Source: Holdemania massiliensis AP2 (GTDB lineage: Bacteria > Bacillota_I > Bacilli_A > Erysipelotrichales > Erysipelotrichaceae). From it: a stretch of 64,000 nucleotides of DNA. Made by a program: the position numbers and the translations under genes. Numbering within the stretch: position 1 is the stretch's first letter; every line of letters begins with the position of its first letter. This document shows positions 5,340 to 11,654 of this stretch, piece by piece. The stretch covers positions 29,496 to 93,495 of the forward strand of contig NZ_HE998572.1 in the NCBI RefSeq assembly GCF_000327285.1, in the 5' to 3' direction. The notes under the pieces are model-generated. The model was not told the DNA's origin. It worked only from the letters and a program-made list of their open reading frames with translations, and made no database searches.

Positions 5340-6068
5340 TTATTCGTCAATTCCTTTGCGGCGATAGACAAGATTGAACGCCAGGGCACAGAGTCCGACC
5401 CAGACGATCATCACAGCCAAGCTCATGACGCCTTCCAGACTGACTAACGGAAGACCTGATGCCTGACGCATAACCAGATCGATAAACGCGGTTGTCGGCA
5501 AAAACTGAGCGATGGCATGAATGTTCGAGTTCATCGTTGAGAAGATTGCCGGCAGCATAACCAGAATCATAAATGGCGCGGACAAGGTTCCGGTTGACAT
5601 TTGGTCTTTGCACAGCAGGCCGATCATTGCTCCCATAAACAACAGACTGAGCGAAGCCAGGGTCCCGCCAATCAGATACACCGCAAAGAAATCCATGGAT
5701 CCTTTTAAAAGGAAGAAATCAACAATTGCGACAATCGTCATTAAAAATAAGGCAATCAGCGATTTGCTTAACAGGAATTCTTCGGCCGACACATCCGAAA
5801 GCATTAAAGTGCGCAGCGTGTTCTTTTCTTTTTCTTCCGCGACCATCATGCTTAACAGACTGATCGGGGTCATTGCCAGGTTCATGATCTGACAGATCAC
5901 GATGAAGTATACAGTCGCCTCACGGTCTTTGGTCATAGGAAGAATATAACCATACATAACGGCAAACACAACCGGCAAGATCAGCATGATCAGTGTATTC
6001 TTATTGATCAGCGTCATTTTCAGATCCTTGCGCAATAAGGCAGTCATGACATGACTTCTGAGCTTCAT
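5340..6068 (-). CDS. ABC-2 type transporter permease
   Basis: 242 residues with about six hydrophobic helices. After the first helix and loop it carries EEKEKNTLRTLMLS (about residues 78-91), the conserved E-x-E-x-x-T motif of ABC-2 permeases that contacts the ATPase. It is short, like the NatB/bacitracin-type half permeases. The start ATG overlaps the ATPase stop by four bases (ATGA), so the pair is translationally coupled and should form an exporter. Substrate unknown; the neighbouring LytTR-type regulator suggests a peptide or antimicrobial, as in many LytTR-linked ABC systems, which is inference. Confidence 0.9.
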   Translation of the reverse strand: MKLRSHVMTALLRKDLKMTLINKNTLIMLILPVVFAVMYGYILPMTKDREATVYFIVICQIMNLAMTPISLLSMMVAEEKEKNTLRTLMLSDVSAEEFLLSKSLIALFLMTIVAIVDFFLLKGSMDFFAVYLIGGTLASLSLLFMGAMIGLLCKDQMSTGTLSAPFMILVMLPAIFSTMNSNIHAIAQFLPTTAFIDLVMRQASGLPLVSLEGVMSLAVMIVWVGLCALAFNLVYRRKGIDE

Positions 6069-6904
6069 CGTAAATCCCTCCCCGTCAGCTGCAAAAAGAT
6101 TGTCTTGAGATCCGGCTCCTGCGAATGGATCGTTAACAGCTGACCTTCCTGTTTTAAGGCTTCGCGCAGCGCTTCCGCGTCCTTGCGCACGCGCACGCAG
6201 GTTCCGTCCTTGTAACGCAGCTCCACCGCATCTTCGGCATATTTTAACCGCAAATCAGAAGGCGTGCCTTCTTCTACGATATGCCCTTCATTTAAGAAAG
6301 CGACGTGATCGCATAATTCCTGAGCTTCTTCCATATTGTGTGTCGTCAGAAAAATCGTTGTTCCCTGGCTGTTCATCTGCCGGATCAGCCGATGCACGTC
6401 CTCGCTGGTTGAGGGATCCAGGTTCGCGGTCGGCTCATCCAGAAACAACAGCTTGGGCTGATGCAGAATGGCCCGCGCAAACATCAGCCGCTGCTTCATG
6501 CCGCGGGAAAGCTTCTCCGCCTTCTTATTCTGGTGTTCGGCCAAACCCAGCTGTTCAAGCACCTGCTGAATCCGAGTATCGGTTGTTTGGGAAATCCGGG
6601 CAAACAGCTTTAAGTTTTCTCTCACTGTCATCTTTTCATAAAATCCGCTGTTGTCCGTCAAGACGCCAATCTGGGAATACAGATCATTACGTCCGGGGAC
6701 CACCGGCTTGCCTAAAACAGTTAATTCACCGGACTGCGGCTTGAGCTGCCCGGTCAGCAGTTTGATCGTCGTCGTTTTGCCGGCCCCGGAAGGTCCGAGA
6801 AAGCCATAAATTTCTCCCTGCTTCACGACGCAGTTCAGTTGATTCAGCGCCGTCTTGCCTTGAAAGGTTTTGGTCAGATTGGCGATGCGAATACATTCGT
6901 CCAT
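6065..6904 (-). CDS. ABC transporter ATP-binding protein (CcmA/NatA type)
   Basis: 279 residues. All nucleotide-binding motifs are present: Walker A GPSGAGKT (37-44), signature LSRGMKQR (132-139), Walker B LLFLDEP (152-158) with catalytic glutamate, and switch histidine H189 in TTHN. The C-terminal 70 residues (EDAVELRYKDGTCVRVRK...) form the small beta extension seen in drug/sodium exporters of the DrrA/NatA type. ATG at 6904 follows AAAGGAGGAACCTACG. It is the first gene of a two-gene unit with the permease and has its own promoter, separate from the regulator gene upstream. It energises export; substrate unknown. Confidence 0.94.
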   Translation of the reverse strand: MDECIRIANLTKTFQGKTALNQLNCVVKQGEIYGFLGPSGAGKTTTIKLLTGQLKPQSGELTVLGKPVVPGRNDLYSQIGVLTDNSGFYEKMTVRENLKLFARISQTTDTRIQQVLEQLGLAEHQNKKAEKLSRGMKQRLMFARAILHQPKLLFLDEPTANLDPSTSEDVHRLIRQMNSQGTTIFLTTHNMEEAQELCDHVAFLNEGHIVEEGTPSDLRLKYAEDAVELRYKDGTCVRVRKDAEALREALKQEGQLLTIHSQEPDLKTIFLQLTGRDLR

Positions 6905-6934
6905 CGTAGGTTCCTCCTTTGAATATCGGCTTTG

Positions 6935-6963
6935 ATTATATCGGCAACAACAGCGTCTGACAA
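6935..6963 (-). promoter_or_regulatory. Promoter of the ABC transporter operon
   Basis: Minus-strand TTGTCA (6963-6958), 17-base spacer, TATAAT (6940-6935), 31 bases before the ATPase start. The gap to the regulator gene end at 7016 leaves about 50 bases where a LytTR-type operator could sit; I could not define paired binding sites. Confidence 0.7.
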
Positions 6964-7015
6964 TGAAATATCGACCAGCGGAGCACTGAGAATGTTCAAT
7001 GGAGTCCTGAAGCGG

Positions 7016-7888
7016 TTAAAGATTCCACAGCCGCTTCAAATCATCGACACGTCCTTTGCTTAATGGTATGTCAACATCCGGTTGCGTCTTCAGCTTTAAG
7101 CCGTAGGAATTGCGCGTCCAGCGGATCAGTTCCTTCACCTTTTCCATATTGACTAAATATGAACGATGACAACGGAAAAAACCATAGGCCGCGAGCCGGT
7201 CCTCCAGCTCCTCCATGGTTGAGGGCGTGATAAATTCGCTGCCGTGGACAACGATTCGGCATTTGCCTCCGACGCTTTCTGCGTAATCGATTTCCTGAGG
7301 GTCAAAAACAAGAATTTTATCTTCCAGCTTTACGGGGATTTTACCGCAGGCATGCGGCTGAAACGCATCGGCTTCATTCTCCAGTTTAACCAGACTGCCT
7401 TGATCCAGCGTGTAGCCAACGCCGGGAAGCAGATACAGCAGCTTCAATGAAACGGTGGTCGTGATAATCTTGGTCGAAACAGCTTGTTCCAGCCAGGCTA
7501 AAATCACCGCGCGGCTGCTTTCGTCAAGGTTTAAGAGTGGTTCTTCGATCCAGAGAACCGGCGCCTGATGCAGAATCTCCCGAGCGATGGCTAAACGGCG
7601 GCGTTGGGAATAGTCTAGTTTTTCAATCGGCGTCCGTGCCAGGGTTGACAAACGCATCGTTTCCATCACGGATTGAATCGGCAATGCCGATCGGAACAGG
7701 CTGGCAAAAAAGCGCAGATATTCCGCTGTCTTCATGTCCTCATAAAAGGCCTCCTGACGCCGCACGATGCCTAACGGACTCACCGCAAGCAGGCAATCCC
7801 GAATCTGATCGCTGCCTTGATTGTCGCATTCGATATGAATTAAATGCTCTCCGCTTTCAAGCAGCCGCTGTTTCCACGCTTCGTTCAT
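7016..7888 (-). CDS. Fused degenerate ABC-ATPase / LytTR DNA-binding regulator
   Basis: 290 residues in two parts. Residues 1-170 align by eye with the second half of an ABC ATPase: a signature-like LDYSQRRRLAIAREIL (91-106), then VLWIEEPLLNLDESS (111-125), a Walker B/D-loop in which the usual DEP is EEP. No Walker A GxxGxGKT exists anywhere, so ATP hydrolysis is unlikely. Residues 184-290 are a LytTR DNA-binding domain with the FFRCHRSYLVN core (237-247) and a KLKTQPDVDIPLSKGR strand-turn. It sits directly upstream of, and co-oriented with, a complete ABC exporter, so it probably regulates it, perhaps by sensing the transporter through the pseudo-ATPase part. Start ATG follows AAAGGCGG. ABC-like/LytTR fusions exist in Firmicutes databases but their mechanism is, to my knowledge, little studied. 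Confidence 0.88.
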   Translation of the reverse strand: MNEAWKQRLLESGEHLIHIECDNQGSDQIRDCLLAVSPLGIVRRQEAFYEDMKTAEYLRFFASLFRSALPIQSVMETMRLSTLARTPIEKLDYSQRRRLAIAREILHQAPVLWIEEPLLNLDESSRAVILAWLEQAVSTKIITTTVSLKLLYLLPGVGYTLDQGSLVKLENEADAFQPHACGKIPVKLEDKILVFDPQEIDYAESVGGKCRIVVHGSEFITPSTMEELEDRLAAYGFFRCHRSYLVNMEKVKELIRWTRNSYGLKLKTQPDVDIPLSKGRVDDLKRLWNL

Positions 7889-8155: not shown

Positions 8156-9835
8156 TTATTCGCTTTTCAGCGTTATCGGACGGCGGTTTTCATAAGCATT
8201 TTTTATTGCCTGAATGAAATCGCCGTGCGGATCGTTCAGGGAAATCGTAGCTCCGGTGCGGACATCTTCCAGCATCTGCTTTTCCTCATCCGTCAAAGCC
8301 TTAAACTTGGCCTTGTCTTCCTCACTCTTGGCTTCCGCCTGCAGCGGACGGCCGTTGGCATCGGTATACTTGGCAAACCAGTCCTCAACTTCCGCAATCG
8401 TCTTGCCGACAAACAGCTGTTCAAAAACATCGGCTTCACTGGCCCAGGTCCCGCTGTTAAGCTTATAGCTGTCGCCGCGTTCCCGCTTTGTTTTCCAGGT
8501 TTCAAATTCAGCTAAATACTGATCTTCACTGTCGGCGGTTTTGCCTTCAATTTTGCCGTCATGATTTTCATCGTTGTTATAGCCGCCCTGGCCCGGGAAC
8601 CCCGAGAACTGCGGCATATCCGCGCCATCGTAGTTCGGCGTTGCAACTTCCAGTTCATCCAGCCTTAATGCTGTGATCCGTCCTTCGTCATCAAACAGTG
8701 CGCTGGCTACTACAGTATTGAAGCTGTAAACCGGCACTTCCTGATCATCCTTGCCCGGTCCAACGCGGCCGTTGGAAACCAATCCCAACCCTTCTGCCGC
8801 AGCTTCTTTGACTTCCAGCGGCTGACGCATTGCATAAGCTTTTTCCAGCGCTGCGATGAAATCGCCGTGCGGATCTTTCAGAGAAATCGTGGCTCCGGTA
8901 CGGACATCTTCCAGCATCTGTTTTTCGTCATCATTTAAAGCATTAAATTTAGCCTTGTCTTCATCGCTCTTGGCTTCTGCCTGCAATGGCCGGCCATTGG
9001 CGTCGGTATATTTAGCGAACCAGTCTTTGACTTCAGCGACGGTTTTGCCTGTAAACAGCTGTTCAAAAACATTCATCTCACTGGCCCAGGTCCCGCTGTT
9101 AAGCTTATAGCTGTCGCCGCGTTCCCGTTTTGTTTTCCAGGTCTCAAATTCGGCCAGATACTGATCTTCACTGTCAGCGGTTTTGCCTTCAATTTTGCCA
9201 TCGTGGTTCTCATCATTATTATATCCACCTTGACCTGGGAACCCCGAGAACTGCGGCATATCCGCCCCGTCATAATTCGGCGTCGCCACTTCCAATTCAT
9301 CAAAATTCAAATCCAGAATTTGACCATTCTGATCAAACAGTGCGCTCAGCACGACTTCATTGAAGCTGTAAACCGGCACTTCCTGATCGTCTTTGCCCGG
9401 CCCTAAGCGGCCATTGGAAACCATCGCCAGGCCTTGATAGAGATCCGCCGCGGCGACGTCCTTCTTTGGCTCTTCCTTTTCAGCCTTTTCTACATAAGGA
9501 TAAGCCTGCGGATCCAATGCATTGTTGACCGCATCCTTAATTCCCTGACTGGTGAAAGTCGCCCCGCTGACATTATCCACGTCTGCGGAATTGGCTTTGA
9601 CAATGGCAGCTGGAAGCTGTTCAATCGCTTTGGAGCCAATGCCCTGGGTTTCTTCATCCCCAACAGCTTTGACCTCTGTGATCTTGCCATCTTTGCGCGT
9701 CAGGGTTACTGTAATCAATCCGCCGAAGCCATTGCCTTTCCCTTCCAGTGTTTCCGTTTTCGTTTCTGAACTGCTGCAGGCCGCTGAGGAAAGCATCAGC
9801 AGAGCAGCGATCAGAAGCATCGTCAACTTTTTCAT
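8156..9835 (-). CDS. Lipoprotein with three FMN-binding-type motifs and an internal duplication
   Basis: 559 residues. Signal peptide with lipobox LSSAAC, lipidated Cys at residue 20. Residues about 35-107 form an FMN_bind domain (GGLITVTLTRKDGKITEVKAV...) ending in VSGATFTS, where T93 is the threonine expected to receive FMN from an ApbE-type transferase. Two further units, residues about 135-340 and 349-554, are near-identical copies offset by 214 residues. Each begins with a VPVYSFNxVVxSALFD strand pair and ends with RTGATISLxDPHGDF, again the [ST]GAT pattern (T316 and T530). Each holds an acidic/glycine insert (PNYDGADMPQFSGFPGQGG) not typical of the family. Known relatives (PplA, RnfG) shuttle electrons at the membrane face, so an extracytoplasmic redox role is likely. 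Single gene; no ApbE or Rnf genes in the window. Confidence 0.85.
   Translation of the reverse strand: MKKLTMLLIAALLMLSSAACSSSETKTETLEGKGNGFGGLITVTLTRKDGKITEVKAVGDEETQGIGSKAIEQLPAAIVKANSADVDNVSGATFTSQGIKDAVNNALDPQAYPYVEKAEKEEPKKDVAAADLYQGLAMVSNGRLGPGKDDQEVPVYSFNEVVLSALFDQNGQILDLNFDELEVATPNYDGADMPQFSGFPGQGGYNNDENHDGKIEGKTADSEDQYLAEFETWKTKRERGDSYKLNSGTWASEMNVFEQLFTGKTVAEVKDWFAKYTDANGRPLQAEAKSDEDKAKFNALNDDEKQMLEDVRTGATISLKDPHGDFIAALEKAYAMRQPLEVKEAAAEGLGLVSNGRVGPGKDDQEVPVYSFNTVVASALFDDEGRITALRLDELEVATPNYDGADMPQFSGFPGQGGYNNDENHDGKIEGKTADSEDQYLAEFETWKTKRERGDSYKLNSGTWASEADVFEQLFVGKTIAEVEDWFAKYTDANGRPLQAEAKSEEDKAKFKALTDEEKQMLEDVRTGATISLNDPHGDFIQAIKNAYENRRPITLKSE
8174..9433 (-). repeat. Tandem duplication inside the lipoprotein gene, 642-base period
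   Basis: Copies at about 8174-8791 and 8816-9433 share long nearly identical blocks, for example the stretches starting at 8217 and 8859. They encode the two C-terminal modules. Such high nucleotide identity suggests recent duplication or ongoing gene conversion, and would allow copy-number change by recombination. Confidence 0.9.
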
Positions 9836-10158: not shown

Positions 10159-11654
10159 ATGAAATTGAAGAAACAACTTCAGCTTTCAAGCACAACTTTG
10201 CTGCTCGCGGCAATCTTTTTATTGATCAATGGGTTAGGGGGAGCCTGGATCTGGCATCGGGAAGTACGCTGGATTGAAAATACTTTATCGGGCCATGGCG
10301 AACACGCCGAAATCCAGCTCAACGAGGTTATGGCAGACTACACCCATTCCTTCCAGCTGTTTGTTTGTCTTTTGGATCAGCTGATTCAGGCGCATCCCGA
10401 TCCGGATGAAATCTGGAATGAATTAAAAGGAATGGATTCCATGTTAGCCCAAATCGAACAAGAAACCTTCGACGGCGTATATATGGTATATCAGGATCGT
10501 TATCTGTATAGCTGGGATACCCCTTATGCTGAAAATAAGAGTACAGGCTATCAGCCGCAGGCGCGGCCTTGGTATCAAAATGCGGTGAAGGACCAGGGGG
10601 CCGTCGTCTTCACTCCGCCCTATATGAGTTATGCCAATCATTACATTCTGTCAACAATCTCACAGCTAACGGTACGATTATCGGTTCTGACCAGGAAGCG
10701 TATTTGGGCAGCGTTTTAAGCGGTGAGACGGCAGCTGCTGAAAAAGCGCTGAGACAGGCGGAAGAAGCCCGGGATAAAATCACTGAGCAGGGGCAGGCAA
10801 AGCAGAAAGCCCAGGAAGAAGCGGAGGCAGCAGCACTCTTCCTGCAGTTTCTTCAGACCAACAGCCCTGCCGTCAAACAGCTTTTGGATCAGCCGGCACA
10901 GGTGCTGCCCGTCAAAATTGATCAACGCCATTATTACGGAACGATGCAGACGGGGGAGTCCTATCACGTCCTGTTTCTGGTTCCACTCACTTCCCTGCTT
11001 GCCCAAAGCGTGCAGGTCTGGCTACTTCCGCTGCTGAGCATTGAACTGATTTTGGTCTACGGTTTAAGCCGGATCCGCAAGGAGCTGCATACCCGCGAGC
11101 TGCGGCAGGCCTATATTGAATTGGGACAAACCCAAAAGCGGTTGGAAATCGCCTTGAAAGCAGCCCAGAAAGCAGCGGCGATTGATGATTTAACCGGTAT
11201 GATGAACGTCAAATCTTTTTGCCAGAATGTTACGGAACAGATTCAGCACATGCAGGAAAACGATCATGGGATTTTAATTTTCCTGGATGGCGATCACTTC
11301 AAGACGATCAATGATACCTATGGACATCAGGTCGGTGATGAGGTTATCAAACTGGCTTCCCAGATGATCATCGGACGTATCCGTACGATTGACTTGGCAT
11401 CGCGGCTGCATGGCGATGAATTCGCAATCTTTGTTTCCAACACTCAGGATTACCAGGTAGCCCGAAAAATTGTTGAGGATATCAACACAACATTGCTTGC
11501 CGAATCAGCGCGGCGGCATATGCCGAATATCACCCTGTCCGCCGGAGCGGTCATCGCTACATGCAAAAGCAGCTATCCCCTTCTGGCAAAACAAGCCGAT
11601 CAAGCGTTATATGATGCTAAAGCAACGCACAACGGCGGTTTTGCCCACGCTTGA
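10159..11654 (+). pseudogene. Membrane diguanylate cyclase, broken by one frameshift
   Basis: Two overlapping frames encode one protein. The first (10159-10719) has an N-terminal transmembrane helix (residues about 11-31) and a dCache sensor with the ligand-pocket signature RPWYQNAVKDQG...PPYMSYANHYILSTIS. After about 10660-10670 the homologous reading continues one frame back (TANGTIIGSDQEAYLG...), through a coiled-coil-like stretch, a second transmembrane helix and a GGDEF domain with DDLTGMMN, FLDGDHFKTINDTYGH and LHGDEF. The A-site reads HGDEF, not GGDEF, so cyclase activity is doubtful even if the frame were intact. The I-site RTID is kept five residues upstream. No slippery heptamer explains the shift. 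It could be a true pseudogene or a one-base sequencing error. Start ATG follows AAGGGG. Confidence 0.8.

Follow-up and report, generated by a model that had tools for sequence, protein, structure and literature searches.

The window analysed here is a 64,000-nucleotide stretch of Holdemania massiliensis AP2 (contig NZ_HE998572.1, positions 29,496 to 93,495), and its minus strand carries an open reading frame (8156..9835) for a three-domain lipoprotein of 559 residues. The product starts with a signal peptide whose lipobox LSSAAC, recognised by eye, ends in the lipidated Cys20 (9776..9835, minus); this cysteine belongs to the nearly invariant set (at least 90%) of an 18-row alignment of relatives, which agrees with the lipoprotein assignment of a first-pass annotation. 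It is followed by a domain of the FMN_bind1 type (residues 36-108; 9512..9730, minus) and by two long FMN-bind2-like modules, module 1 (residues 133-343; 8807..9439, minus) and module 2 (residues 347-557; 8165..8797, minus). The modules are spaced 214 residues or 642 bp apart, as had been read from the sequence earlier. Scanning for a promoter or terminator at the gene revealed none that was obvious, and counts were at or below those of shuffles. Neighbouring genes in the window encode an M14 peptidase, ABC and LytTR proteins, a broken diguanylate cyclase and a beta-lactamase-fold protein, and none of the neighbours in the window is flavin- or redox-related.

We found that residues 36-108 constitute a genuine domain of the FMN_bind family. 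PF04205 matched them along its whole length (model positions 1-77 of 77) with 64.1 bits against a cut-off of 22 and an E value of 2e-17. Their predicted fold aligned with domain 2 of SaFMN3 (8p2a) at Z 12.0 over 84 residues (1.9 A) and with domain 1 of CbFMN4 at Z 11.9. When the full-length model was submitted to Foldseek, only this N-terminal domain matched below E 0.001; MHC-like rows (probability about 0.1) were dismissed as sheet-and-helix look-alikes. The RnfG model TIGR01947 was not reached (22.5 bits against a cut-off of 102), and the PplA model NF041941 was absent from the matches of the lipoprotein at E <= 1.

Exactly three [S/T]GA[S/T] tetrads occur in the protein, SGAT at residues 90-93 and TGAT at 313-316 and 527-530, just where the first-pass annotation had placed them. 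Each meets the ApbE substrate consensus D-x-x-[S/T]-G-A-[S/T] with its aspartate included: DNVSGAT around T93 (9557..9577), DVRTGAT around T316 of module 1 (8888..8908) and DVRTGAT around T530 of module 2 (8246..8266), all on the minus strand. Shuffling the residues of the lipoprotein gave a mean of 0.068 tetrads, and 0 of 20,000 shuffles contained two tetrads bearing the aspartate. The earlier proposal of three possible covalent FMN sites is supported in part: T93 sits in a genuine FMN_bind domain, and the sequences at T316 and T530 conform fully to the ApbE consensus.

Pfam and NCBIfam searches with residues 133-343 and 347-557 gave nothing above cut-off; ADDT, IFT57 and other faint Pfam matches fell below it and were discarded. 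Neither a clear solved relative of a module by sequence (best E 1.4) nor a Foldseek match of a single module at E <= 0.001 was obtained. The model of a single module (pLDDT 89.8, pTM 0.87) runs beta-beta-beta, insert, alpha, more helices, motif, alpha, beta, and the FMN_bind domain runs beta-beta-beta-alpha-motif-alpha with connections of about 10 and about 12 residues. Strands beta1 and beta2, joined by a short turn, have 19 and 14 residues in the module versus 9 and 9 in FMN_bind1. Among 995 aligned PDB chains the FMN_bind protein 3o6u came top for the module, at a weak Z of 6.8 (4.0 A, 108/120 residues) that lies in the range reached by unrelated folds, followed by IscU at Z 6.1. Because IscU also scores Z 6.8 against the plain FMN_bind domain, we take the match to 3o6u to reflect a shared fold class, as supportive rather than decisive. 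Profile similarity between FMN_bind1 and the modules was weak as well, with probabilities of 4% for the long modules and 31% for the short family described below, both on the motif, and the module profile gave no useful score against the lipoprotein's own FMN_bind1 sequence. For an FMN_bind-like fold of the repeats, a point on which the first-pass annotation had hinged their flavin-binding role, the order of elements and the identity of the best match are supportive, and the strength of the two structural searches is not.

A scan of genome contigs for long-form relatives yielded 21 loci, including those of Holdemania sp. Marseille-P2844, Sedimentibacter, Proteiniclasticum, Gemmiger, an Anaerocolumna MAG and a Christensenella MAG. 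Each of the 18 proteins aligned over its whole length consists of FMN_bind and exactly two modules. Runs of N cross the paired modules of two relatives (L012 and L013, in genomes G027 and G002), perhaps reflecting assembly trouble with near-identical copies. The motif Asp, Ala and Thr/Ser are each kept in 36/36 long modules. By contrast, the motif glycine is G in 14/36 modules, with A, S or T at that position in 22, whereas glycine and threonine are both invariant in the 18 FMN_bind1 domains. A G-to-A change roughly halved flavinylation in one test protein, according to a review (PMC12052999). Judged by their residues, both modules of the AP2 protein are ideal predicted sites, and the relaxed motif of the family would mean either that ApbE accepts it or that some sites have been lost.

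This pattern is what would be expected if only T93 carried FMN and the modules, descended from a flavinylated ancestor, were structural, calcium-binding or partner-docking, their TGAT being vestigial in much of the family. Strong conservation beyond the motif (TPNYDG, the DENHD loop and DxHG) suggests such another role, and the weak solved-fold match of the module fits it too. However, the invariance of the three other motif positions argues against it, as does the full consensus present in both modules of Holdemania and several relatives. A further argument comes from short relatives with equally relaxed motifs, which adjoin apbE. We regard flavinylation of T93 alone as the less likely possibility.

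The short family came to light through a distant homologue next to apbE (L020). Its modules, of about 155 residues, are mostly paired in lipoproteins of about 340 residues, and short forms were present in 36/392 genomes sampled from the phylum; one short pair is encoded in the genome of H. massiliensis AP2 itself (L094 5675-6706). Long modules aligned with the short family through the threonine (hhalign probability 98.8, E 9e-17), and the attachment Thr/Ser is kept in 52/52 short modules. For 8 of the 28 short-family proteins listed, apbE lies in the same small locus, which has a probability of about 2e-14 at an assumed 0.3% chance and with the proteins treated as unrelated. A subtype termed FMN-bind2, with domains of about 160 residues in even numbers and an example from Erysipelotrichaceae, is described in Huang et al. 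2024 (PMC11334425). The short family fits this description; because the published domains were compared by description and not by sequence, we infer that the two are the same. As for the long modules, they share with FMN-bind2 the long beta3-alpha1 insertion (about 65 residues in the module model versus about 10 in FMN_bind1) and the even domain number (two in each of the 18 complete proteins), and depart from it in length, at about 212 residues. Also described for the subtype are a sheet-extending insertion between beta1 and beta2, where the module has the longer strands and the short turn given above, and a packing of its paired domains sheet against sheet.

The first-pass annotation had taken the two modules for a recent duplication, nearly the same in DNA. 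The latter was an overstatement: identity is 82% over a 300-nt ungapped core and 80% across the module as a whole, rising to 86% in its middle and falling to 57-70% at the ends. A module tree groups the copies by lineage and not by position, with 9 label changes of which at least 7 are forced. Both the 80-82% identity and this clustering would be consistent with a recent duplication private to the lineage. Nevertheless, the layout of FMN_bind plus two modules in 18/18 aligned complete carriers recurs in distant families, with the same tandem in Sedimentibacter, Proteiniclasticum, Gemmiger and others and with copies homogenised within lineages, so the duplication is not recent. In the sister Holdemania, moreover, the middle segment is 92% identical between its own copies versus 81-85% between species, and the module ends are 65-70% identical between modules versus 78-82% between orthologues. 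Such a homogenised middle between position-specific ends is, on these DNA comparisons, the pattern of gene conversion, indicating concerted evolution of an old pair. A recent and private duplication is thus highly improbable.

The glycine- and acid-rich insert that had been pointed out in the repeats is real. It corresponds to a conserved segment of the DENHD type, TPNYDG...YN-x-D-x-[ND]-H-D-x-x-[VI]-[DE], which is kept in all rows of the long-family alignment. In the AP2 protein the loop reads DENHDGKIE in both module 1 (9188..9214, minus) and module 2 (8546..8572, minus), and two short strands flank it in the module model. The loop resembles EF-hand-like D-x-[DN]-x-D loops and may bind Ca2+. 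It is conceivable that the long paired modules form a distinct, unmodelled class of covalent flavin carriers, with an ApbE site that accepts A, S or T where the consensus has glycine and a loop that binds Ca2+ to tune or gate the flavin pair, so that the protein would be a calcium-dependent surface electron relay; we consider this combination quite doubtful. A further D-x-H-G is invariant after each module threonine in the long family (SLxDxHG, residues 318-324 and 532-538) and missing from the short family.

No apbE was found beside the long-form genes in the flanks examined, and no partner gene is common to the long-form loci except in Sedimentibacter. At five loci of the Sedimentibacter type (L025, L029, L032, L036 and L039), the next gene downstream specifies a lipoprotein in which a flexible linker of about 50 residues, N/G/T-rich or acidic, accompanies one FMN_bind domain; this lipoprotein looks like a tethered flavin arm. 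Elsewhere in the AP2 genome there are candidates for the ApbE and the flavin-reducing partner that the first-pass annotation had suggested looking for: two ApbE, an RNF cluster, and 29 reductase-like ORFs combining FMN_bind with FAD_binding_2 in the manner of fumarate reductases. The RNF cluster (L046 6604-7845 (-), 7858-9237 (-) and 10732-11916 (+); G000 C1:1014000-1033000) encodes an RnfG with three FMN_bind domains and an RnfD with an extra C-terminal one, and a lipoprotein ApbE adjoins it. This RNF has five predicted FMN sites when the TGAT of RnfD itself is counted. Co-occurrence with ApbE was set aside as evidence; it is uninformative, with 17/18 carrier genomes against 50/60 ordinary relatives.

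The best reading of these results, to which we give a probability of about 0.6, is a relay of three flavins on the membrane surface. Its computed support consists of the lipoprotein architecture, the N-terminal FMN_bind domain, homology between the modules and an apbE-linked paired family, threonine conservation, the conserved three-domain layout, and the ApbE, RNF and reductases of the genome. Counting against it are the variable motif glycine, the weak profile and fold matches of the modules to FMN_bind, and the lack of flavin-related neighbours in the window. The protein would be a secreted flavoprotein anchored to the membrane of a Holdemania-like Firmicute. Extracytoplasmic ApbE would join FMN via a phosphoester bond to T93 in FMN_bind1 and would likewise load T316 and T530 in the paired long domains of FMN-bind2 type, giving the cell surface a short relay of three flavins. 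Electrons would presumably enter from RNF, with its FMN_bind domains on RnfG and RnfD, directly or via other flavoproteins, and leave to acceptors outside the cytosol, for example the 29 predicted flavinylated proteins that resemble fumarate reductases. The paired modules would act as one paired unit, probably also in space, with their copies kept alike by gene conversion.

A relay between proteins is not the only use to which surface flavins might be put; the lipoprotein could instead be a terminal extracellular reductase (of ferric iron, quinones or humics, for example) or a redox sensor. SaFMN3, a related protein with several flavins, can in its fully reduced state donate electrons to O2 in vitro (PMC10339131), and the lack of a conserved partner gene at most loci would suit such an end point. 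Yet the Pfam search of the lipoprotein returned no catalytic domain for substrate reduction, FAD_binding_2 for instance, the FMN_bind/FAD_binding_2 candidates could themselves be the terminal enzymes, and the Sedimentibacter operons pair the gene with the linker-tethered FMN_bind lipoprotein. A terminal reductase or sensor is accordingly unlikely.

Proteins with several covalent flavins are already known (PMC8238504, PMC10339131, PMC11334425; 2021-2024). CbFMN4 and SaFMN3 (Tong et al. 2023, PMC10339131; 8p2b and 8p2a) are likewise exported and membrane-anchored, with several covalent FMN that in the AP2 protein are predicted; they consist, however, of three or four highly similar compact FMN_bind1 domains, whereas the AP2 protein combines a single FMN_bind1 domain with two dissimilar long modules. 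The two-domain FMN-bind2 protein of Huang et al. 2024, from the same bacterial family, resembles it in the paired domains, the long insertion, the extracytosolic location and an attachment threonine before the last helix. The long modules differ from those domains in the EF-hand-like loop, in extra helices before the motif and in their fusion behind FMN_bind1. RnfG and NqrC have FMN_bind with SGAT in common with the AP2 protein, which is a lipoprotein outside an rnf operon. The survey of Meheust et al. 2021 (PMC8238504) describes extracytosolic proteins with multiple ApbE sites, Gram-positive hosts and a proposed longer-distance electron transfer; it counted FMN-binding domains, and the AP2 protein would probably count there as a single site, its modules being without a Pfam model. 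As judged from sequence, the apparent novelty lies in the hybrid of FMN_bind1 with paired, enlarged FMN-bind2-like modules, the conserved EF-hand-like loop and the relaxed attachment motif; the accessible part of PMC11334425 contains no description of such a hybrid.

If T316, T530 and their relaxed relatives are flavinylated, then 1) counts of extracytosolic flavins based on Pfam FMN_bind overlook a whole class of paired domains; and 2) the accepted recognition motif of ApbE is too narrow. The protein would also be a candidate distributor of membrane-surface electrons in gut Firmicutes that use RNF and dozens of flavinylated reductases.

Three minor observations concern other genes. The second ApbE of the AP2 genome (L047 6019-9598) has as neighbours a pair of rhodanese-like lipoproteins and another lipoprotein that shows a degenerate FMN_bind match and a DTFTGSSVSS motif, a possible sulfur-linked flavinylation cluster. 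In the window, genes for an ABC permease, an ABC ATPase and an ATPase-like protein with a LytTR domain (5340-7888, minus) stand between the M14 peptidase and flavoprotein genes and are absent at the same locus of the sister genome (L095). The diguanylate cyclase with an extracellular sensor (10159-11654, plus) is broken, having lost about residues 170-205 and acquired a frameshift relative to the intact 534-residue sister gene.
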